Shown here: positions 2 through 54,829 of the stretch, one piece after another
Layout of the letters: every line of letters starts with the position of its first letter
How positions within the stretch are numbered: position 1 is the stretch's first letter
Notes under the pieces: generated by a model
Told to the model about the DNA's origin: nothing
The model's database searches: none
What the model saw: only the letters and a program-made list of their open reading frames with translations
Program-made: the position numbers and the translations under genes
Source of the DNA: Catellicoccus marimammalium M35/04/3
Lineage (GTDB): Bacteria; Bacillota; Bacilli; Lactobacillales; Catellicoccaceae
Direction: 5' to 3'
NCBI RefSeq assembly: GCF_000313915.1
Contig: NZ_AMYT01000022.1
Location: forward strand, 62,001 to 126,000
Length of the DNA stretch: 64,000 bases

Positions 2-670
2 TCTTTTTATGATTTAACAACAAAAGAAACTCTTTCTTTAAATGCAAACATTCCTTTTCAAGCAGGAAGTACTTTTTATATTCCTGTTGCATTAATTGTG
101 GCAGATAAAATTTATGCTAAGCAATTAGATCCAAAAGAAGAGATTCCTTATGAAGGAATTACGCCAGAAGTGAATGAAGGAGAAATTTATAAAAATCCAA
201 AAGAAAGTTATACGATTGAGGACCTTCTTCGCTTAATGTTGGCCTATAATGATTCGATTGCTTATGAAATGTTAGTCCAAGTATTAGGTGGAGAAAAAGA
301 AGTGCTGCAATATTTGCAACAATATTATGATAAAAATCAGCCAGTAAAAGAGAAAGAACCTTGCTTAACAGCAGGAACTGCTTTATATTATTTGCGTTTA
401 TTATATGAAAATCCAACGAATAATCCTGAATATATCAAAATTCAAAAATGGTTATTGAAATCAGGAAATAGTGGATTAGCAACAAAAACAACACGAGAAA
501 AAATGGCTCACCGTTCTTCTTTTAGAGAAGAAAATTATCATGATATTGGAATTTATTATGGTGCACATCCTTATATTGTAACGATTTATACTAAAGGAGA
601 TCGTGACGGAGACTATATTATTGGACAAATTTCCGATGATGTTTATAAAATGGTACAAAAGGAAGGATAA
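2..670 (+). CDS. Beta-lactamase-fold (class A-like) serine hydrolase homologue, 5' truncated, active site degenerate
   Basis: The reading frame is open from base 2, so the N-terminus lies outside the window; 222 residues are visible. The layout matches class A beta-lactamase-type serine hydrolases of Gram-positive bacteria: an AGST-x-P-V-A-L segment at the nucleophile helix, a Y-x-D-x-x-A-x-x-M-L segment where SDN should be, and a late H-x-x-x beta-strand region. All three catalytic motifs are altered. SxxK reads STFY, SDN reads NDS, and KTG reads RSS. Family knowledge says the SxxK lysine and the KTG box are needed for acylation, so I infer a non-catalytic binding or scaffold protein. It leads an operon; the next gene starts 8 bases downstream. 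A truncated view could hide an extra domain. Confidence 0.7.
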   Translation, partial: SFYDLTTKETLSLNANIPFQAGSTFYIPVALIVADKIYAKQLDPKEEIPYEGITPEVNEGEIYKNPKESYTIEDLLRLMLAYNDSIAYEMLVQVLGGEKEVLQYLQQYYDKNQPVKEKEPCLTAGTALYYLRLLYENPTNNPEYIKIQKWLLKSGNSGLATKTTREKMAHRSSFREENYHDIGIYYGAHPYIVTIYTKGDRDGDYIIGQISDDVYKMVQKEG

Positions 671-678
671 AAGAAGAC

Positions 679-924
679 ATGCATACGATTTGGTTATTAA
701 TCATTGGTACCGTTGTAGGAGCCATCGCAAGTATGATTGTAGGAGATTCTGGAGCTGGTGGATGTTTGAAAAATAGTATTGCTGGCTTAGTTGGATCTTT
801 TGTTGGTGAGCGATTATTTGGTGACTGGGGATTCCATTTGGCTGGAATTGCTATTATTCCTGCAATTTTAGGAGCAGTGATTGTGATTATTATTTTACAA
901 TTTGTAATGAATCGATTGGATTAG
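679..924 (+). CDS. GlsB/YeaQ/YmgE-family small stress membrane protein
   Basis: An 81-residue very hydrophobic protein with three predicted membrane segments and the glycine-rich pattern of the transglycosylase-associated (GlsB/YeaQ/YmgE) family: an N-terminal helix with G-x-x-x-G, a central SIAGLVGSFVG segment, and a C-terminal helix. In enterococci such proteins accompany the Gls24 envelope-stress proteins. No Gls24 or Asp23 gene is visible here; instead it sits inside an operon of hydrolase-fold proteins, 8 bases after the first and 17 before the next. A role in the envelope is inferred from this. Confidence 0.8.
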   Translation: MHTIWLLIIGTVVGAIASMIVGDSGAGGCLKNSIAGLVGSFVGERLFGDWGFHLAGIAIIPAILGAVIVIIILQFVMNRLD

Positions 925-941
925 AAATAGAGGGGAAAAAG

Positions 942-2390
942 ATGAAAGTACGTTTGAATGAAAGTCCATTTTATTTAGATGATGAAGGAATTCAGTGGGT
1001 AAAAAATAAAATTCATTCTTTAACATTAGAAGAGAAATTAGCACAATTAATTTTTTATCAGCCACAAGAAGAAGAGATTTCAGCGCTAGATAAAGAAATT
1101 ACTAGTTTTGGAGTTGGAGGACTATATTTACAAAAAGATAGTAAAGCCCATCTTTATGAAAAATGTCGTTTTTTACAGACTCATTATGCAGTACCAGCTT
1201 TTATTACTAGTAAGTTAGTAACAGGGACAAAAGAAGCTATTGAAGAAGGAACCTTTATTGGTTCTCCTCTGAAAATTAGCGCTACAGGTAAAGAAGAAAA
1301 TGCTTATACTTTAGGTTGGGTTAGTGCTTTAGAATGGGGCGCAATTGGAGGAAATATTATTCAGGGACCAAACTTTTCGACAAAAGAAGGAAAAGAAGAA
1401 ACTCGCTATTGGACAAAGAATCGTGGAGAATTTCTTTCTTCTTTTGCTCAAGGAGTTACTGAAAATGATGTTATCGCCATGGGTTATGGTTTATTCGATG
1501 AAAAAATTAGCTTAGGGGACTGGCGAAAACAAAATGGAGCTTATGCTCGTCGTTGGATTAAAGAAGGAGGAAGTGTTCTTCTTTTGGATGCTACTCCTTT
1601 CTCAGATTATATTCAAATGTATAGTGAAGAAGAAAAAGAACAACAACGTGCAAGTTATTATTCCACTTATATTACAGAGCAATTGTTGCGCAAACAATTA
1701 CAATTTTCAGGTGTAATTGTAGCAAATGTTCGTCCAGCAGAATCTGCAGATTATGCCTTAGCGATTGGTTCAGGATGTGATATGGTTTATACAGAGGAGC
1801 CGATTGAGACTGTAATTGCGGCATTAAAAGAAGGATTACATTTTGGCGTGTTTACCGAGCATCAATTGCAACAATCATTGCAACGTATTCTAGGAGTTAA
1901 AGCAATGCTTGGTTTATGTGACAATATCCCATTTTTAGAAGTGTGCAATAAAAAACAAGAATTAGCTAAGGTTCATCAAGCGAAAAATCAATTGTATCAA
2001 GGAAAAATTTCTAATGAAGCTATTGTTTTACGTAATGATCACGGAGGATTACGTCAAACGAAAGGACATAAAATTGCTTTACAACCAGCAAGTCCAAAAG
2101 AAGAATCGTTGGTACAATCGATCGTTCAGCAATGGGAAGATGCACAGTTTTATGTTTTACCTTTAGGAGAGACAACTGATGACTTTGTGATTACGGTTCG
2201 CCAAGATGGAACAACTAAAATTTCTGATGCACAATGTATTTTAACTTGTGGAAATCCAGAAGTACCGTTACAAAATGAAATTGAAGAGATCATTATTTTT
2301 GATCAAGAAGAAGAAACTTTACTTTCTTTACTAGAAAAAATAAAACAAAATACACCATTTTTAGGAACAATAGAAGAAGGAAATGAATAA
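942..2390 (+). CDS. Glycoside hydrolase family 3-like protein lacking catalytic residues
   Basis: 482 residues. The N-terminus carries the GH3 signature (WVKNKIHSLTLEEKLAQLIF) and the protein follows the NagZ-type (beta-N-acetylglucosaminidase) barrel through to R-I-L-G-V-K near residue 320, followed by a roughly 150-residue C-terminal region. In NagZ the nucleophile is the Asp of a F-x-G-V-[VI]-x-T-D motif; here this reads FSGVIVAN, Asp to Asn. The KHFPGHG loop that supplies the catalytic His is not recognisable; the region near residue 178 reads AMGYGLFDE. No signal peptide is visible. I infer a GH3-fold pseudoenzyme or a strongly diverged enzyme. Ribosome site GAGGGGAAAAAG precedes the ATG. 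Confidence 0.7.
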   Translation: MKVRLNESPFYLDDEGIQWVKNKIHSLTLEEKLAQLIFYQPQEEEISALDKEITSFGVGGLYLQKDSKAHLYEKCRFLQTHYAVPAFITSKLVTGTKEAIEEGTFIGSPLKISATGKEENAYTLGWVSALEWGAIGGNIIQGPNFSTKEGKEETRYWTKNRGEFLSSFAQGVTENDVIAMGYGLFDEKISLGDWRKQNGAYARRWIKEGGSVLLLDATPFSDYIQMYSEEEKEQQRASYYSTYITEQLLRKQLQFSGVIVANVRPAESADYALAIGSGCDMVYTEEPIETVIAALKEGLHFGVFTEHQLQQSLQRILGVKAMLGLCDNIPFLEVCNKKQELAKVHQAKNQLYQGKISNEAIVLRNDHGGLRQTKGHKIALQPASPKEESLVQSIVQQWEDAQFYVLPLGETTDDFVITVRQDGTTKISDAQCILTCGNPEVPLQNEIEEIIIFDQEEETLLSLLEKIKQNTPFLGTIEEGNE

Positions 2391-2392
2391 TT

Positions 2393-3025
2393 ATGCGATT
2401 AGAACAAGATGATAAGATATTATTTTTAGGTGGATTAAATACAGGAGCCGGTCGTAAATACGATGACTTTTCTGATATGGGACGTGGTTTTGCTATGATT
2501 ACAGCAGCTGCATTAGATGCAAGACATCCTGATTTAAGCTTACGCTTTGCAAATGCAGCACAATTAGGAGATAATTCACAAATTATGATGGAATCGATGA
2601 ATGAACGTTGTATTGAGCAAAAGCCAAATGTAGTAATTATTTTTGCTGGCCATCAAGATGCAATTTTAGCAGAACAACATCATGAGCAAGCTACATTAAA
2701 AGAATATTCTCGTTTTAACCGAAATTTACGTCAGTTAATTCAAGAAATTCAAAATACAGTTACTCGAAGAATTATCTTATTAGAACCCTTCTTATTAGAT
2801 GTCAATTCACAAACACGTGCTTTGCGTATTGATATGAATCAAAAAATTCAAATTTTACGAGAAATTGCTCGTGATTGTCAATGTGAATATGTAGCACTGG
2901 ATGGAATTATCAATGAATTAGCCATTCGTTATGGCAATCAAGCTTATATTGCTGAAGATGGAATGACTTATCATCCAGCAACACACCACATTATTGCACA
3001 ACGTTTATTAGAACATTTTGAATAG
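2393..3025 (+). CDS. SGNH/GDSL-hydrolase-like protein with degenerate catalytic blocks
   Basis: 210 residues, clearly built like the common Firmicutes SGNH hydrolases: D-x-I-L-F-x-G at the start, a central strand PNVVIIFAGHQDA, then an EPF strand and a C-terminal H-P-x-x-H-x-x-I-A helix. The catalytic blocks are changed. The GDS serine block reads GGL (Ser to Leu). Block II Gly-Asn positions read NAAQLGD. The GxND oxyanion block reads GHQD. The DxxH block has Asp and His separated by four residues instead of two. Esterase activity is therefore unlikely. The start lies 2 bases after the GH3-like stop, so the two are probably translationally coupled. Confidence 0.7.
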   Translation: MRLEQDDKILFLGGLNTGAGRKYDDFSDMGRGFAMITAAALDARHPDLSLRFANAAQLGDNSQIMMESMNERCIEQKPNVVIIFAGHQDAILAEQHHEQATLKEYSRFNRNLRQLIQEIQNTVTRRIILLEPFLLDVNSQTRALRIDMNQKIQILREIARDCQCEYVALDGIINELAIRYGNQAYIAEDGMTYHPATHHIIAQRLLEHFE

Positions 3026-3034
3026 GAGATATTT

Positions 3035-3358
3035 ATGAAAATCGAGTTCACACCAAAAGCTAAAGAATATATTACAGCAAAAAAAGGCGAAGGAAAAGAG
3101 TGCCTATCTTTACTTTATCAACCGATTGGATGCATTTGTTCCAATGATGCTGTTTTTTATTTAGAGAATAGTACAGAGTATCCAAAAGATGCTATTTTTG
3201 TAGAGTCTAATTTGGGAAAAATTGCCATGGAAAAAGATAAAATCCAATATTTAGATGAAGAAAATAAAATTGATTTTAATGAAAGAGAACATCATTTAGA
3301 ATTAAAAGGAAAAATGATGGGTTATATTACGCCAAATCTACGTTGGGTGGAAAAATAG
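3035..3358 (+). CDS. HesB/IscA-like iron-sulfur biosynthesis family protein
   Basis: 107 residues resembling the short Gram-positive HesB-like (Fe-S_biosyn) family: N-terminal F-T-P-K-A-K-E-Y-I, a mid-protein LLYQPIGCICSNDA segment with two cysteines, and an F-V-E-S-N-L-G strand. The C-terminal Cys-x-Cys of true A-type carriers is absent, as in other members of this short subfamily. It closes the operon that begins upstream (9-base gap, GGAGAT ribosome site) and is followed at once by a hairpin terminator. A direct link to the suf operon 5 kb away is not shown. Confidence 0.6.
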   Translation: MKIEFTPKAKEYITAKKGEGKECLSLLYQPIGCICSNDAVFYLENSTEYPKDAIFVESNLGKIAMEKDKIQYLDEENKIDFNEREHHLELKGKMMGYITPNLRWVEK

Positions 3359-3361
3359 AAA

Positions 3362-3396
3362 ACAAAAAAGCTTCACACTAGGTGAAGCTTTTTATG
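3362..3396. terminator. Bidirectional hairpin terminator
   Basis: A 12-base perfect inverted repeat (3365-3376 with 3382-3393) with flanking A and T runs ends the five-gene operon on the plus strand and the EIIA-like gene on the minus strand. The minus-strand gene stop at 3392 lies within the hairpin. Confidence 0.9.
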
Positions 3397-26743: not shown

Positions 26744-26883
26744 TTTCCTTTAATTTCCGTGTTTATTAATAGTATTTTTTTGAAAAATATCTAAAGTATG
26801 AGAAAATATTGATAACACATTTTATTGTGAATCTTGTACTATTGAATTAATAAATGACACGTATAAAGGAGAACATACCCCAA

Positions 26884-29800
26884 ATGAAAAAGAAAACACT
26901 ATATACAACAGTCGCAAGTTGCTTATTTAGCGTTGGTTTATTAACAAACGTCGATGCATTTGCTGCAGAAGAAGAAAATGATAAAAAACATACAGTAGAT
27001 GCAGTTAAAGAACATAAAGATGAACGTATTTCTTTAACAAAACTAACCCCTTGTTATACAAAAATTGGTTGGGGCGAATTGAAAGTCAATAAAAACTTGG
27101 ACAATCAGCCAATCCGCTTGAAGTTGGATAATGATGAAGTATTTACTTTTGATGAAGGAATTGTTGCTCATGCCTATTCAAAAGTAGAATATAATATCTC
27201 AGAATATTCAGAAAAATATCCAATTTTCCAAACGTATGTCGGTGTAGATTATTCACGTGGAAATCGTGGTTCTGTTTCGTTTAAAGTATATACATCAGAA
27301 GATAATAAAAATTGGAAAGAAGTCGATCATACCGAAGTATTAAGTGCTGATTCTAAAGCAAAATTAATTCGCGTAAACGTTAAAGGAGCAAAATATATTC
27401 GTTTAGAAGCAAATGATAACCATGGAAATGGCGATGATCATGCTGCTTACGGAAATCCAATGTTAACAACAGAAGAGTATAGTGATGCACCTGGAGAATC
27501 ATTAGCTGTGGTGAAACCAGTTAGCGTTTATGATGAAGAAATTAAAAAAGCATACGCAGCAAATAACAATACTTTAAATGAATCGATTAAAAAATTGATC
27601 TTACAACGTACTTTTATTGCTCGTTGTGGATATCATACAATCAATAAATTAACTAAAAATAGCCAAGAAACAACCGAAGCATTAAACTGGTTATTAAATA
27701 ACTACAATGCCTTATCTCATTTTATCCATGCAGGAGAAATGGACCGTGCAGCTTCAACAGATAAAGTAATCAAATCTTGGACTGAATTATATAAAAATTA
27801 CCATGATGATTTCACAAGTCCAGTCTTATTAAAATTAGCAATCGCGACAGCGATTACTCATGGTAGTGATATTTATTTCTGGACAGGTTCTGGACAACCT
27901 TCTGTAGCTACAGAGCGTTATGCTTCATTCAAAAAATTATATAAGAATGGAACAATGGCCAAAGGAATCCGTACAGGAAATATTAAAGACTTTGAAACAT
28001 TACCACCTGTATTATTACGTTGGGTTGTCAATGCTAAAATGCACACTCCAGAAATTAATTGGTTTGCAAATTATGCCTTAAAAGAAAAAGATAAAGGTCG
28101 TAATTACCTAGATGCCTATAATTACATTAACTATACAGATGGCTATAACTATGGTAAAGAAGAATATCATGATTTAAAACAAGCAGAAAAATGGAATAAA
28201 AAATACGATTTCAAAGAATTATATGCGAGTGAAGAAGAATATACCAACCGAAACATTCAACACTTATGGCAAGTCTTTGAGGAAGGTTCTGTTTGTGGTG
28301 GATTAGCAAAAACTTACACTAATGTCCAACAAGTATTTGGTTTACCTGCTGCAGTTTGTGGACAACCAGGACATGCTGCATCTTTTGTCTATGATAAAAA
28401 AGATGGAAAACCAGTATGGAATATTTATAATGATATCTTTGGCTTTATGAAATCAGATCGTGGAGATTTCTTATTCTGGGGACCTAAATATTCTTCTACA
28501 AATTATAATGGTAGTTATGTATTATTAGCTCAAGCAGCATTAAATGATTATCGTGCCTTTATGAATGCAAACTACTACAATTTATTAGCAAATAGCTTTA
28601 ACTCACCAGAAGATAAAGTGAAAGCATATCAAAAAGCATTAGAAGTTGAAGGACTAAATATGGACTCCATTATGGGCTTATTAAAAAATATGAAATCATT
28701 AAATGTTTCTGATGCAGATTACTTACGCTTTGCAAAAGAAGTAGCGAAAAACTTGAAATATTATCCACTACCATTTGTTGATGTGATGAATGAAATTCGT
28801 TCTCAAATGAAATCTGCAAATGATAAAGCAGCGATTGATTCTTTACGCTTACGCACATTGAAAGATATGAAGAAAGTAAGTGATTCAGAATATATCCAAG
28901 CGAACGTTTGTCGTGGAATGGCTGATTTCTTATTAGGAGATCGTGATATGACTGTAGCTACTTTCTCTTTTGATGGAAAAGATGCAGGTACTATCGTAAT
29001 GAATGAACGTTATCAAGATTCTGATATTCGTTGGGAATATTCATTAGATGGTGGCAAAACGAAAAAAGAAGTAAATGATAAAAAATTAAAATTATCATCA
29101 GAAGAAATTGCTAAAATCAATGCAAAAGATGGAATTCAAATTTCATTTGTAGGAACGGATGAAATTCATAAAATTGAAATTGAAGATGGAAACTTAGATA
29201 AGAAATTCCATGTCAATGATTTAGAAAACCGTTTATTAGGCTCAAACCAACCATTAGAATATCAAGATCAAGATGGTCAATGGAAACCGTATACAAATAC
29301 AGTTCGTTTTGCTGGGGATCAAAAAGTGAAATTCCGTTCTGCAGCTCATGGTCAACAAATGGCAAGTTCAGCACAAGAATTTAACTTTACGGCAAGTACA
29401 GACCAAAAAACATATATTCCAGTTTCTGATATTTCCTTATACAAATTCTGTTCCGAACACAACAATACAGATGAAGCTGCGAAAAATATGATTGATGGTG
29501 ATAAAAACACATTATGGCACAATGATTGGGGCGGAAATGATAACTTATTCTACAGTGTAGAATTTAACCAAGTGAAAAACTTAAAAACTATCCAATATTT
29601 ACCTCGTCAAGCGGGAAATGATAATGGTAAATTAAAAGAAGTTTCTATTTACACAAGTTTAGATGGTAAAGAGTGGAAATTAGCACAAACCTTTACTAAT
29701 ATTTCTGCTAGTCGTGAAATGAAAACATTTACGTTAGACAAACCAGTCCAAGCTAAATATGTAGCATTAAAAGCAAACCAAACTTATGGTAAAATATTAA

Positions 29801-30312
29801 ATCGCTTCTTCTCTGGTCAATTATTAAACTTCTTTGAAGCAGATACGAAAGTAGCAGATAAAGAGCAATCAAAAGAAGAATTAGCAAAAGAAGTGAAAGG
29901 TTTAGAAGTCAATCATTACCAAAAAGCAGCTTTATTAAAAGCAGTAAAATATGATGCTGTGAAAAAAGTGCAAGAAATGATTGAAAAAGTAAAAGAGCAA
30001 CATAGAAATGTAGCTGTCGTTCGTACACAATTAATCAACCAATTAGAAGATTTAGCTTTAGTAGATACAGATCAAGCCAAAACAGAAATTGAAAAGGCAC
30101 ATTCTGTAGATAAAATGAATGAAATTTTCAACCAAGTATATGCAGAAAATCAAAAAGAAATGAAACGTTTCCAAGAATCTGGATTGAAAAAATTAGAAGC
30201 TTGTTCAAATCTTTCAAAAGAAGATAAAGAATACTACAAAGATAGTATTTTGATGGCAACAAGTCCAGTTGAAGTTTCTATGCTTGTCGGTGAAGCTCGT
30301 CAGAAAAATTAA
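26884..30312 (+). CDS. Large secreted protein: NPCBM, transglutaminase-like and F5/8C domains
   Basis: 1142 residues. Signal peptide of about 28 residues ending ADAFAA-like (VDAFAAEE). An NPCBM carbohydrate-binding domain spans about 50-195. The central region holds a papain/transglutaminase-like segment: Cys471 in G-S-V-C-G-G, His497 in G-Q-P-G-H-A-A, and N-D at 516-517 in W-N-I-Y-N-D. A discoidin-like F5/8C domain spans about 847-985, and the last 150 residues are helical and charged. No LPxTG or membrane anchor, so it is likely released or loosely bound. A role on host or wall glycoconjugates is inferred. Start ATG at 26884 follows AAGGAG at a long spacing of 12; an ATG ten codons earlier lies before that site. 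Confidence 0.75.
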   Translation: MKKKTLYTTVASCLFSVGLLTNVDAFAAEEENDKKHTVDAVKEHKDERISLTKLTPCYTKIGWGELKVNKNLDNQPIRLKLDNDEVFTFDEGIVAHAYSKVEYNISEYSEKYPIFQTYVGVDYSRGNRGSVSFKVYTSEDNKNWKEVDHTEVLSADSKAKLIRVNVKGAKYIRLEANDNHGNGDDHAAYGNPMLTTEEYSDAPGESLAVVKPVSVYDEEIKKAYAANNNTLNESIKKLILQRTFIARCGYHTINKLTKNSQETTEALNWLLNNYNALSHFIHAGEMDRAASTDKVIKSWTELYKNYHDDFTSPVLLKLAIATAITHGSDIYFWTGSGQPSVATERYASFKKLYKNGTMAKGIRTGNIKDFETLPPVLLRWVVNAKMHTPEINWFANYALKEKDKGRNYLDAYNYINYTDGYNYGKEEYHDLKQAEKWNKKYDFKELYASEEEYTNRNIQHLWQVFEEGSVCGGLAKTYTNVQQVFGLPAAVCGQPGHAASFVYDKKDGKPVWNIYNDIFGFMKSDRGDFLFWGPKYSSTNYNGSYVLLAQAALNDYRAFMNANYYNLLANSFNSPEDKVKAYQKALEVEGLNMDSIMGLLKNMKSLNVSDADYLRFAKEVAKNLKYYPLPFVDVMNEIRSQMKSANDKAAIDSLRLRTLKDMKKVSDSEYIQANVCRGMADFLLGDRDMTVATFSFDGKDAGTIVMNERYQDSDIRWEYSLDGGKTKKEVNDKKLKLSSEEIAKINAKDGIQISFVGTDEIHKIEIEDGNLDKKFHVNDLENRLLGSNQPLEYQDQDGQWKPYTNTVRFAGDQKVKFRSAAHGQQMASSAQEFNFTASTDQKTYIPVSDISLYKFCSEHNNTDEAAKNMIDGDKNTLWHNDWGGNDNLFYSVEFNQVKNLKTIQYLPRQAGNDNGKLKEVSIYTSLDGKEWKLAQTFTNISASREMKTFTLDKPVQAKYVALKANQTYGKILNRFFSGQLLNFFEADTKVADKEQSKEELAKEVKGLEVNHYQKAALLKAVKYDAVKKVQEMIEKVKEQHRNVAVVRTQLINQLEDLALVDTDQAKTEIEKAHSVDKMNEIFNQVYAENQKEMKRFQESGLKKLEACSNLSKEDKEYYKDSILMATSPVEVSMLVGEARQKN

Positions 30313-45525: not shown

Positions 45526-46116
45526 ATGGGAAAAAGAGATTGGTGTTATGATGCAGAATATCGAACTTATGTCGATGATTTACTAGAAAAACCACAAGTA
45601 CAAGAATTAAAAAATTATAAACATCATCATTATACAAATCGTTTAGATCACTCGATTGCGGTATCGTATTATAGTTATTTACTTGCAAAAAAGATGCATG
45701 CTAATGCTCGAGCTGTCGCAAGAGCAGGTTTGCTTCATGATATGTATTACTATGATAATGAAACCGCAAAAGAAGTATTGAATGGGGAAAATCATTATAA
45801 AGTGCATCCACAAATTGCAGCGATAAATGCCGCTCAAATTACAGATTTAAGTGATCTTGAAAAAGATATTATTCATAGCCATATGTTTGGAGCTACAATG
45901 ACGGTTCCTCATTACAAAGAAAGCTATATTGTTACGTTAATGGATAAGTATTGTTCGATTAAAGATGTGAGCTCTCCATTTTGGCAAAAGACAAAAGATA
46001 AGACAAAATCCTTTGTGCAAAATCATGAGACAACATTGAAATGTAAAGAGAAATTTGATAAAATCAAAAAAGAAAAAATGAAACCATTAGCGAAAAATGT
46101 TGAGGGAAAAGAGTAG
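45526..46116 (+). CDS. HD-domain phosphohydrolase
   Basis: 196 residues. The metal-binding H...HD...D pattern is visible: H-H-H-Y-T-N-R-L-D-H-S near residue 36, L-L-H-D-M near 71, and D-K-Y near 146. Substrate unknown. It ends at the T-box leader of pheS. Confidence 0.85.
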   Translation: MGKRDWCYDAEYRTYVDDLLEKPQVQELKNYKHHHYTNRLDHSIAVSYYSYLLAKKMHANARAVARAGLLHDMYYYDNETAKEVLNGENHYKVHPQIAAINAAQITDLSDLEKDIIHSHMFGATMTVPHYKESYIVTLMDKYCSIKDVSSPFWQKTKDKTKSFVQNHETTLKCKEKFDKIKKEKMKPLAKNVEGKE

Positions 46117-46120
46117 TTTT

Positions 46121-46308
46121 CCAACTCCGAATCCAGAGACTTCTACCTTGGCTGAAAGTAGAAGAGACGAGGGAAAATGAAGTTCACTTCCTGAATTGTT
46201 GATAAAACCGGTGGGAGCCGTTATCTTCTTTGAGTGTATGAGTGATCATAAATAAGGATGGTACCACGGGTGTCTTCGTTCCTTTACGGAATGAGGACTT
46301 TTTTTTTG
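46121..46308 (+). promoter_or_regulatory. T-box riboswitch, phenylalanine-specific, controlling pheST
   Basis: T-box sequence AAGGATGGTACCACGG at 46254-46269 is followed by a terminator hairpin (46272-46282 with 46288-46298) and nine T residues. In Stem I, an apical hairpin (CTTCTAC / GTAGAAG) is followed by the specifier TTC at 46183-46185 with an A after it, matching Phe. Stem I looks short, about 80 bases. Uncharged tRNA-Phe should prevent termination. Confidence 0.92.
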
Positions 46309-50650: not shown

Positions 50651-51874
50651 ATGAAACCAAAGTTACGTTTTAAAGAATTTACCGACGACTGGGAAGAGAA
50701 GAAATTAGGGGAGATTGCAGAAAATTTTATTGGTGGTGGAACACCTAATACAAAAGTACCAGAATATTGGAATGGAGATATTGCTTGGATTCAAAGTTCT
50801 GATATTGATAAAAACAGTGGAAAAGTAAATGTTGAGAAGCATATATCTGATAAGGCATTAAAAAATAGTGCAGCTAAATTGATTCCTAGTTCATCAATTG
50901 CTGTAGTTACAAGAGTTGGAGTTGGAAAAGTTGCGTTATTAAATCATGAATATAGTACGAGTCAAGATTTTTTATCCTTTGTAAATGTATATGGAAATCC
51001 TCAATATTGGTTTTATGAAATATCTAAATTGATGTATAAGCAATCTTTTTATCTACAAGGAACATCCATCAAAGGAATTACAAAATCAGAAATTCTTAAT
51101 ATAAGTACGTTTTGTCCATCTCTACCAGAACAAGAAAAAATAGGAAAATTTTTCTCTTTGCTAGATCAACGAATTGAGAAACAAGAACGAAAAGTAGCTT
51201 TATTGGAAGAAGAGAAAAAGGGATATATGCAACAGATATTCAATCAAGAGCTACGCTTTAAAGATGAAGAAGGAAATAACTATCCAGACTGGGAAGAGAA
51301 GAAATTCCTAGATTCTTTTTCATTAATCATAGATTATCGAGGGAAAACTCCTAAGAAATTAGGATTAGATTGGGGAAATGGAAATATTAAAGCATTATCT
51401 GCATTAAATGTAAAGAAAGGATATATTGATTGGAATGCAGATGTACATATGGGGTCTGAAGACCTTTATAGTGCATGGATGAAGAAGGGAGATTTAAAAC
51501 AAGATGATATTTTATTTACAACAGAAGCTCCTTTAGGAAATACAGCTTTAATTCCAGATAATAAAAAATATATTTTAAGTCAGCGTGTTATTGCTTTAAG
51601 AACAAATGAAAACTGTAATCCTAAATTTATTTTTCAATGTATGAATGATTTTACTTTTGAAAATCAAATTCAAAAAAGAAGTACAGGAACAACAGCGAAA
51701 GGTATTAATCAAAAAGGATTATCAAAAATTAAAATCCAACTTCCTTCTTTACCAGAACAAGAAAAAATTGCGAACTTTTTAAGTCTGTTAGATCAACGAA
51801 TTGAAAAGGAACAAGAAAAATTACATTTATTAAAACAAGAGAAAAAAGGCTTATTGCAACAAATGTTTGTCTAA
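50651..51874 (+). CDS. hsdS: Orphan type I restriction-modification specificity subunit HsdS
   Basis: 407 residues with the two-half layout of HsdS: target recognition domain 1 (about 10-155), central conserved region with L-P-E-Q-E-K-I-x-x-F-x-S-L-L-D-Q-R-I-E-K, target recognition domain 2 (about 205-365), and a distal conserved region with the same repeat. Both halves begin D-W-E-E-K-K. It directs methyltransferase and nuclease subunits to bipartite DNA sites, but no hsdM or hsdR lies in this window. More AT-rich than its neighbours, suggesting transfer. Ribosome site AGGAGAACA. The end abuts a relic of another gene. Confidence 0.9.
   Translation: MKPKLRFKEFTDDWEEKKLGEIAENFIGGGTPNTKVPEYWNGDIAWIQSSDIDKNSGKVNVEKHISDKALKNSAAKLIPSSSIAVVTRVGVGKVALLNHEYSTSQDFLSFVNVYGNPQYWFYEISKLMYKQSFYLQGTSIKGITKSEILNISTFCPSLPEQEKIGKFFSLLDQRIEKQERKVALLEEEKKGYMQQIFNQELRFKDEEGNNYPDWEEKKFLDSFSLIIDYRGKTPKKLGLDWGNGNIKALSALNVKKGYIDWNADVHMGSEDLYSAWMKKGDLKQDDILFTTEAPLGNTALIPDNKKYILSQRVIALRTNENCNPKFIFQCMNDFTFENQIQKRSTGTTAKGINQKGLSKIKIQLPSLPEQEKIANFLSLLDQRIEKEQEKLHLLKQEKKGLLQQMFV
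50687..50706 (+). repeat. Direct repeat at the start of HsdS half 1
   Basis: These 20 bases recur exactly at 51287-51306, a distance of 600 bases. They encode the D-W-E-E-K-K start of each HsdS half. Confidence 0.95.
51287..51306 (+). repeat. Direct repeat at the start of HsdS half 2
   Basis: Second copy of 50687-50706. A further 19-base pair of repeats (51123-51141 and 51750-51768) marks the L-P-E-Q-E-K motifs. Such repeats are crossover points for domain exchange between hsdS genes. Confidence 0.95.
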
Positions 51875-53044: not shown

Positions 53045-53377
53045 ATGATTAGATATTTCAAAAATAAGAAGAGGAAAAAAGAAGAAGATAAACAAACAAT
53101 CATTTCAGAAATAAAAAAAGTACATCAAAAAGTTCAACCATTGGATCCAGAAGTAGAAAAAATTTTTATTAAAGGAATAAGAAATTTAGAAAAAGGGAAA
53201 AATCCTGAATACATTGCTTATCAAATAGAACGAGAGCTACTTCATGTAGCATCCACTCGTTATGATGACACAAATAATGAATATTATCATTTTCCAGAGC
53301 CTATTGAAGAGTTGATGGAGAAGTTTGCAGAAATAGGAGCGTATTTTATACGAATTGAACGTGGAGGAATGATGTAA
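53045..53377 (+). CDS. Immunity-like helical protein, array copy 1
   Basis: 110 residues: basic N-terminus rich in Lys and Arg (residues 5-16), then I-S-E-I-K-K-V-H-Q-K-V-Q-P-L-D-P, F-I-K-G-I-R-N-L-E-K-G-K-N-P-E, and a C-terminal helix P-I-E-E-L-M-E-K-F-A-E-I-G. The middle-C-terminal pattern is like EntA-type immunity proteins; the basic N-terminus is unusual for them. Copy 1 differs from copies 2 and 3 around residues 58-78. AAGGAG site. Function unproven. Confidence 0.5.
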   Translation: MIRYFKNKKRKKEEDKQTIISEIKKVHQKVQPLDPEVEKIFIKGIRNLEKGKNPEYIAYQIERELLHVASTRYDDTNNEYYHFPEPIEELMEKFAEIGAYFIRIERGGMM

Positions 53378-53449
53378 AAATAGACAATATCTCTAAGTCT
53401 ACGCCTAAAATAAGAATGATAAATGTTTTTGACGCATATCAAAATCCAT

Positions 53450-53689
53450 TTATTTTTTCTTATTTCTTTTTTTCATTCGTAAAGGAAAAGAAAGATCTAA
53501 TTGTTTAGAAAACTGTTGATGAAATGCTTTTTTCGCAGCAGGTAGGTCATATTTGAACCAATTTTTGAAAAAAGAAAACACAGCGATACAAAAATCAAGT
53601 CCCACATCAACAATCGATTGACTAAAAAATTCATAAACCACTACAGCGATGATAATAATCGCAGTAATAATCATCCCTAAAATAAACAT
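53450..53689 (-). CDS. 79-residue membrane peptide, copy 1
   Basis: 79 residues: one N-terminal membrane helix (about 2-22), a second amphipathic or membrane region F-C-I-A-V-F-S-F-F-K-N-W-F, and a strongly basic end K-K-R-N-K-K-K. ATG at 53689 follows AGAGGGG. Divergent from immunity-like copy 2, with 84 bases between start codons. No family recognised. It may be a partner or target of the immunity-like protein. Confidence 0.6.
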   Translation of the reverse strand: MFILGMIITAIIIIAVVVYEFFSQSIVDVGLDFCIAVFSFFKNWFKYDLPAAKKAFHQQFSKQLDLSFPLRMKKRNKKK

Positions 53690-53773
53690 TTTTACCCCTC
53701 TTTTACCTTTTACTTTATCTTTATTATAAAGGAAAAGAAAAAAAGTAAGAAAGAAAATGAAAGGAGATAAAAG

Positions 53774-54103
53774 ATGGATTTCTTCAAGAAAAAGAGAAAG
53801 AAGAGAAAAGAAGATAAACAAATAATCATTTCAGAAATAAAAAGAGTACATCAAAAGGTTCAACCATTGGATCCAGAAGTAGAAAAGATTTTTATTAAAG
53901 GGATACGAAATTTAGAAAAAGGAAAAAATCCTGAATATGTTGTCTATCAAATTTGGGGAGAATTAGTAGATTTTTCTAGTCGTCATTTTGATTATGTTCA
54001 TGATGAATATTATCATTTTCCAGAGCTTATTGAAGAGTTGATGGAGAAGTTTGCAGAAATAGGAGCGTATTTTATACGAATTGAACGTGGAGGAATGATG
54101 TAA
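53774..54103 (+). CDS. Immunity-like helical protein, array copy 2
   Basis: 109 residues. Begins M-D-F-F-K-K-K-R-K-K-R-K-E-D-K and is otherwise as copy 1, with Y-Q-I-W-G-E-L-V-D-F-S-S-R-H-F-D-Y in the middle. Its 3' end is identical to copy 1, its 5' and middle to copy 3, showing how the duplication joined them. GAAAGGAGA site. Confidence 0.5.
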   Translation: MDFFKKKRKKRKEDKQIIISEIKRVHQKVQPLDPEVEKIFIKGIRNLEKGKNPEYVVYQIWGELVDFSSRHFDYVHDEYYHFPELIEELMEKFAEIGAYFIRIERGGMM

Positions 54104-54175
54104 AAATAGACAATATCTCTAAGTCTACGCCTAAAATAAGAATGATAAATGTTTTTGACGCATATCAAAATCCAT

Positions 54176-54415
54176 TTATTTTTTCTTATTTCTTTTTTTC
54201 ATTCGTAAAGGAAAAGAAAGATCTAATTGTTTAGAAAACTGTTGATGAAATGCTTTTTTCGCAGCAGGTAGGTCATATTTGAACCAATTTTTGAAAAAAG
54301 AAAACACAGCGATACAAAAATCAAGTCCCACATCAACAATCGATTGACTAAAAAATTCATAAACCACTACAGCGATGATAATAATCGCAGTAATAATCAT
54401 CCCTAAAATAAACAT
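54176..54415 (-). CDS. 79-residue membrane peptide, copy 2
   Basis: Same 79 residues as the gene at 53450-53689, without a difference. It again lies divergent to an immunity-like gene (copy 3), keeping the pair layout. Confidence 0.6.
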   Translation of the reverse strand: MFILGMIITAIIIIAVVVYEFFSQSIVDVGLDFCIAVFSFFKNWFKYDLPAAKKAFHQQFSKQLDLSFPLRMKKRNKKK

Positions 54416-54499
54416 TTTTACCCCTCTTTTACCTTTTACTTTATCTTTATTATAAAGGAAAAGAAAAAAAGTAAGAAAGAAAATGAAAGGAGATAAAAG

Positions 54500-54829
54500 A
54501 TGGATTTCTTCAAGAAAAAAAGAAAGAAGAGAGAAGAAGATAAACAAATAATCATTTCAGAAATAAAAAGAGTACATCAAAAGGTTCAACCATTGGATCT
54601 AGAAGTGGAAAAGATTTTTATTAAAGGGATACGAAATTTAGAAAAAGGGAAAAATCCTGAATATGTTGCCTATCAAATTTGGGGAGAATTAGTAGATTTT
54701 TCTAGTCGTCATTTTGATTATGTCCATGATGAATATTATCATTTTCCAGAGCCCATTGAAGAGTTGATGGAAAAATTTAAAAACATAGGAGCGTATTTCA
54801 TACGAATTGATCAAGGAGGAATGATGTAA
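54500..54829 (+). CDS. Immunity-like helical protein, array copy 3
   Basis: 109 residues, nearly as copy 2. Differences include Pro to Leu near residue 36, and its end reads F-K-N-I-G-A-Y-F-I-R-I-D-Q-G-G-M-M where copies 1 and 2 have F-A-E-I-G and R-I-E-R. Followed by a terminator. Confidence 0.5.
   Translation: MDFFKKKRKKREEDKQIIISEIKRVHQKVQPLDLEVEKIFIKGIRNLEKGKNPEYVAYQIWGELVDFSSRHFDYVHDEYYHFPEPIEELMEKFKNIGAYFIRIDQGGMM

Follow-up and report, generated by a model that had tools for sequence, protein, structure and literature searches.

Single pseudoenzymes are known in bacteria. The LytM domains of EnvC, NlpD and ActS are inactive, and these relatives of wall hydrolases are kept for regulation. 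They are described as activators of amidases (PMC12440217). For the three hydrolase folds considered here, the nearest described proteins are the enterococcal PF13354 protein of structure 3cjm ("putative beta-lactamase"), the beta-glucoside phosphorylase BglP/BglX (5vqd) followed by NagZ/YbbD (3bmx), and the Geobacillus stearothermophilus acetylxylan esterase Axe2 (3w7v/4jhl) together with EstSL3 from Alkalibacterium. EstSL3 is active, with a putative triad of Ser15, Asp189 and His192 and the oxyanion-hole residues Gly59/Asn88 (PMC4768246). The catalytic residues of Axe2 are Ser15-His194-Asp191 (PMC6282417), and one of the references in that paper, Lansky et al. 2014, calls the enzyme intracellular in its title.

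We analysed a window of 64,000 nucleotides from Catellicoccus marimammalium M35/04/3 (contig NZ_AMYT01000022.1, positions 62,001 to 126,000). At its start lies an operon of five genes, all on the + strand and separated by 8, 17, 2 and 9 bases:

1-670, + strand: beta-lactamase-fold protein (PF13354), residues 89-310 of 310
679-924, + strand: GlsB/YeaQ-type small membrane protein (PF04226)
942-2390, + strand: GH3-fold protein, 482 aa, no signal
2393-3025, + strand: SGNH-fold protein (PF13472) of Axe2/EstSL3 type, 210 aa, no signal
3035-3358, + strand: HesB-like PF01521 protein that keeps C33-x-C35, on a long branch
3365-3393, listed on the - strand: terminator-like stem after the fifth gene, with runs of A and T on either side

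In gene order, the Pfam assignments were PF13354, PF04226, PF00933, PF13472/PF00657 and PF01521. The open reading frames, the gaps of 2-17 bases and these assignments bear out the layout given in the initial annotation, namely five co-directional, tightly spaced genes with three hydrolase folds among them. Shine-Dalgarno-like sequences precede the gene starts, and none of the three hydrolase folds reached its NCBIfam equivalog cut-off. Just upstream of the operon and pointing away from it, a secreted protein of collagen-binding type (PF17961, PF05737) that contains KPDQPS-type repeats is encoded on the - strand at L002:4682-7397, an interval that also holds a GT2 glycosyltransferase.

Several other features were observed elsewhere in the window. 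The large secreted protein encoded at 26854-30312 (1152 aa) contains NPCBM and F5/8 type C domains, and a T-box leader (RF00230) lies at 46091-46286, upstream of the phenylalanyl-tRNA synthetase genes. The HsdS specificity subunit of a type I restriction system (PF01420, two halves), encoded at 50651-51874, stands alone: neither a methylase nor an endonuclease gene can be seen next to it in the window. At 53045-54829, a 726-base unit is repeated in tandem in three partial or full copies (84-97% identical), each unit encoding a soluble protein of ~109 aa and a convergent small membrane ORF. Since the neighbouring ORF at 52556-52858 matches the enterocin A immunity family (PF08951), although below threshold (E=3e-4), the repeat may represent an amplified bacteriocin-immunity array.

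For comparison, we collected relatives of the three hydrolase-fold proteins from 296 genomes of the order and aligned them, about 30 per family. As controls, we used UppP and a GH13 enzyme, both encoded in the same window.

The beta-lactamase-fold gene begins 262 bases upstream of the window. With the upstream flank fetched, the complete ORF (G000:C20:61738-62670) was found to encode 310 aa from a GTG start, with AGGAGG just before it. A profile search assigned the product to PF13354 (E=2.7e-24), and the closest relative with a solved structure was 3cjm (E=5.5e-27), which shows ~30% identity over the whole domain and the same N-terminal anchor layout. The membrane anchor of the Catellicoccus protein spans residues 9-27 (mean Kyte-Doolittle value 2.79), and the domain behind it is predicted to sit outside the cell. 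Against the class A equivalog NF033103, the 222 residues within the window alone scored 49 bits, below the cut-off of 200. All three motif sites are altered:

68-79, + strand: SxxK site changed to S-T-F-Y (Lys to Tyr, Ser kept); Ser and Lys in 31/31 relatives
248-256, + strand: SDN site changed to N-D-S; Ser and Asn in 31/31 relatives
512-520, + strand: K[T/I]G site changed to R-S-S; Lys and Gly in 31/31 relatives

The patterns S..K, S.N and K.G, the last in the form K[IYP]G, are common to every one of the 31 aligned relatives, and the Catellicoccus copy has S..Y, N.S and R.S; the class A motifs SxxK, SDN and K[TS]G accordingly read SxxY, NDS and RSS. Compared with the 3cjm protein, in which the third motif is KIG, only Ser111 and the central Asp172 are retained.

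The GH3-fold protein matched the GH3 N-terminal domain (PF00933, E=6e-14) and 5vqd (E=3.7e-16). By sequence its nearest kin are BglP/BglX and next NagZ/YbbD; the alignment with these covers the N-terminal barrel and a portion of the C-terminal domain. The protein derives from cytoplasmic-type sugar enzymes of this BglP/NagZ-like group. Two sites distinguish it from both:

1479-1505, + strand: acid/base loop KHFPGDG...ERD[QH]H changed to AM-GYGLFDEK-IS, with ~15 residues gone
1722-1727, + strand: nucleophile site Thr-Asp changed to Ala-Asn (D262N)

Every full-length GH3 relative aligned has both KHFPGDG...(D/E)RD[QH]H and the Thr-Asp pair. An active GH3 enzyme would be expected to carry an Asp nucleophile with an Asp-His or acidic acid/base; here residue 262 is Asn and the His/Asp loop is deleted. 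The protein is also shorter than its relatives (482 vs about 565-620 aa).

The SGNH-fold protein matches Axe2 and EstSL3 over its whole length with near-identical residue numbering, and it derives from cytoplasmic-type sugar enzymes of this kind. The positions that we scored are the same as the catalytic sites of EstSL3 (PMC4768246), and three of them are replaced:

2435-2437, + strand: catalytic Ser15 changed to Leu (GDSITD to GGLNTG)
2654-2656, + strand: oxyanion-hole Asn88 changed to Gln (GxND to GHQD)
2966-2968, + strand: catalytic His192 changed to Thr (DGVHPT to DGMTYH)

The catalytic Ser and His and the oxyanion Asn are present in 29/29 aligned SGNH relatives. We extended the comparison to 80 named relatives, ranging from Desemzia, Carnobacterium and Enterococcus to Paenibacillus and beyond, in which Ser and His occurred in 80/80 and Asn in 79/80 (one has Ser), although the His motif was part of one of the search patterns, which biases this wider set. 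With Leu15, Thr192 and Gln88, neither the Ser15-Asp189-His192 triad nor the Gly59/Asn88 oxyanion hole of an active enzyme is complete; Gly59, Asp189 and His198 are retained, and a His194 adjoins the lost His192. An AlphaFold2 model built on an alignment of 57 relatives reached a pLDDT of 94.4, and Foldseek matched it to Axe2 with E~1e-15 and a TM score of 0.86.

These comparisons agree with the initial annotation in that several catalytic motifs, not one, are replaced in each protein; aligned relatives keep them in every case apart from the single Asn exception in the wider SGNH set. The further statement that the catalytic residues themselves are lost holds for the SxxK lysine, the SDN and K[T/I]G sites and the GH3 and SGNH sites, but the beta-lactamase-fold serine is kept. 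Likewise, the frames are open as described and the SGNH fold is well modelled, but "full length" does not apply to the shortened GH3 protein. Of the structural overlays that had been proposed as a check, the SGNH protein superposed on Axe2, and the beta-lactamase-fold model, made without an alignment, reached a pLDDT of only 43. Taken together, the alignments support catalytic losses that are real, multiple and derived in all three families. Sequencing or assembly error was ruled out as a source, because the losses are multiple, in frame and spread across separate genes; a genome-wide loss of catalytic residues was also considered and is absent from both control proteins.

The retained residues bear on the idea that at least one of the proteins is still an enzyme whose catalytic residues have been re-sited. 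In the beta-lactamase-fold protein, Ser111 and Asp172 persist, and Ser111 with Tyr114 and Arg259 would form a candidate set. In the SGNH protein, Asp189 and His198 persist, and His194 is a candidate for a catalytic His shifted by two positions; the protein nevertheless lacks a Ser at 15 and has no obvious substitute nucleophile. The GH3 protein lacks both the acid/base loop and the nucleophile, and the intact relatives show no such alternative arrangements. We therefore regard new chemistry of this kind as quite unlikely.

We then analysed how far the proteins have diverged outside their active sites. The three hydrolase-fold proteins retain just 41-62% of otherwise invariant columns: the GH3 protein keeps 41% of strictly invariant columns (left-out relatives at least 96% each), the SGNH protein 62% (at least 86% each) and the beta-lactamase-fold protein 56% of the columns invariant among enterococcal-type relatives (at least 69% each). 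The controls UppP and GH13 keep 99% and 95%. End branches were 3.07 changes per column for the GH3 protein and 1.99 for the SGNH protein, compared with 0.24 for UppP and 0.48 for GH13. Many non-catalytic invariant positions are therefore gone as well, and some loosened constraint contributes to the losses.

Such divergence could mean that the genes are decaying during genome reduction, on their way out under relaxed selection because their activity is no longer needed. The small genome (about 1.28 Mb), the long branches, the lost non-catalytic invariant positions and the shortened GH3 protein are all in keeping with this. Against it, the frames remain open across 310 (beta-lactamase fold), 482 (GH3) and 210 (SGNH) codons despite near-saturated divergence; under saturating neutral change, the chance of an open frame would be 7.6e-12, 1.6e-16 and 1.1e-7, respectively. 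Synonymous codon preference was 0.211 for SGNH, 0.151 for GH3 and 0.122 for the beta-lactamase-fold gene, within the range of the controls (0.056-0.27), and codon-position GC, including that at third positions, resembles that of housekeeping neighbours in a window of 33.9% GC. Open frames, normal codon use and ribosome-binding sites make ordinary decay unlikely, as do the confident SGNH fold and the functional appearance of the HesB-like and GlsB genes in the same operon. The open-frame odds, the codon use and the SGNH fold indicate that coding selection has acted on the frames through most of their history, and open frames with normal codon use, as read from this one genome, would fit genes that may still be maintained. 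The proposal that non-catalytic roles are likelier than decay is thus upheld.

To examine the distribution of the operon, we searched genome_contigs, plasmids and phages, viral contigs and 396 genomes of the order; none of them yielded a close relative. The search for the same gene set in other Lactobacillales, suggested in the initial annotation, returned none among up to 396 genomes of the order; the five-gene set was found in no other genome, and the source is the sole member of its family among the genomes searched. Orthologues with intact motifs had been named as evidence that would overturn the reading. Relatives with intact motifs do exist and in this literal sense were found, but solely at 25-35% identity and at loci that are not linked. 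In the flanks fetched for these relatives, the three families never lay side by side, and an ancestral pathway operon is for this reason unsupported.

The remaining two genes look ordinary and functional. GlsB occurs in 114/148 genomes of the order with identity up to 59%. The HesB-like protein has an end branch of 1.53, yet it keeps the C-x-C pair as well as all six columns that are strictly invariant in its set. Canonical A-type carriers have a C-terminal Cys pair. This protein (3035-3358) and most of its relatives carry a C-x-C near residue 33 and no C-terminal Cys pair, and the whole subfamily may be something other than ordinary iron-sulphur carriers.

Membrane segments are confined to GlsB and the first protein. 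In the GH3 and SGNH proteins, no stretch of 19 residues exceeds 1.31 on the Kyte-Doolittle scale, and no signal is visible. These results bear on the earlier suggestion that the three proteins, with GlsB as anchor, make up a single membrane complex for sensing or binding wall fragments. The genes do share an operon, and two of the products carry membrane segments. Since the GH3 and SGNH proteins lack an export signal and the beta-lactamase-fold domain is predicted to lie outside, the complex would have to draw on both sides of the membrane, and a single extracellular wall-fragment complex is unsupported; both proteins are moreover of cytoplasmic-type descent, like the intracellular Axe2, and the three families were co-located in none of the flanks fetched. 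GlsB is widespread without these partners as a conserved protein of most genomes in the order, and the beta-lactamase-fold protein has an N-terminal anchor of its own. We consider such a complex very unlikely. Signalling across the membrane by the operon proteins is compatible with this topology.

All three proteins have lost catalytic residues that the rest of their family retains, as pseudoenzymes do. We therefore consider it probable that this is a pseudoenzyme operon, in which three folds without catalysis are kept for non-catalytic work. Their ancestors would have been a serine hydrolase of family PF13354 with a membrane anchor and two cytoplasmic enzymes, a GH3 glycosidase or phosphorylase and an Axe2-type acetyl-esterase; catalysis would have been lost and the folds retained, the fold being shown directly for the SGNH protein alone. 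To judge from their residues, all three would lack activity completely and presumably still bind something, so that they would, for example, bind ligands, exert allosteric control or serve as scaffolds for partner proteins. The most likely arrangement is a binding domain outside and two proteins inside, rather than one extracellular complex. The beta-lactamase-fold domain outside may have kept the ability to bind a ligand, wall-like or other. Sensing or sequestering a metabolite, or modulating a partner, may be the role of the two cytoplasmic sugar-enzyme folds. That the genes lie in one operon suggests a shared process, which co-transcription would mirror. That the three folds form one co-expressed module and gave up catalysis when it acquired a new non-catalytic function, linking for example a ligand signal from outside to control of the envelope or of cytoplasmic sugar, is possible but doubtful.

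If the pseudoenzyme reading is correct, the automatic labels (class A beta-lactamase-like, beta-hexosaminidase and GDSL esterase) would probably be wrong three times in this operon, which offers a compact test case of whether pseudoenzymes can evolve as a set. We know of no report of an operon with three unrelated hydrolase folds, each disabled at several catalytic positions. EnvC, NlpD and ActS may offer a parallel in mechanism, not in kinship: they are wall-hydrolase relatives, whereas the Catellicoccus operon would bring together three unrelated folds.
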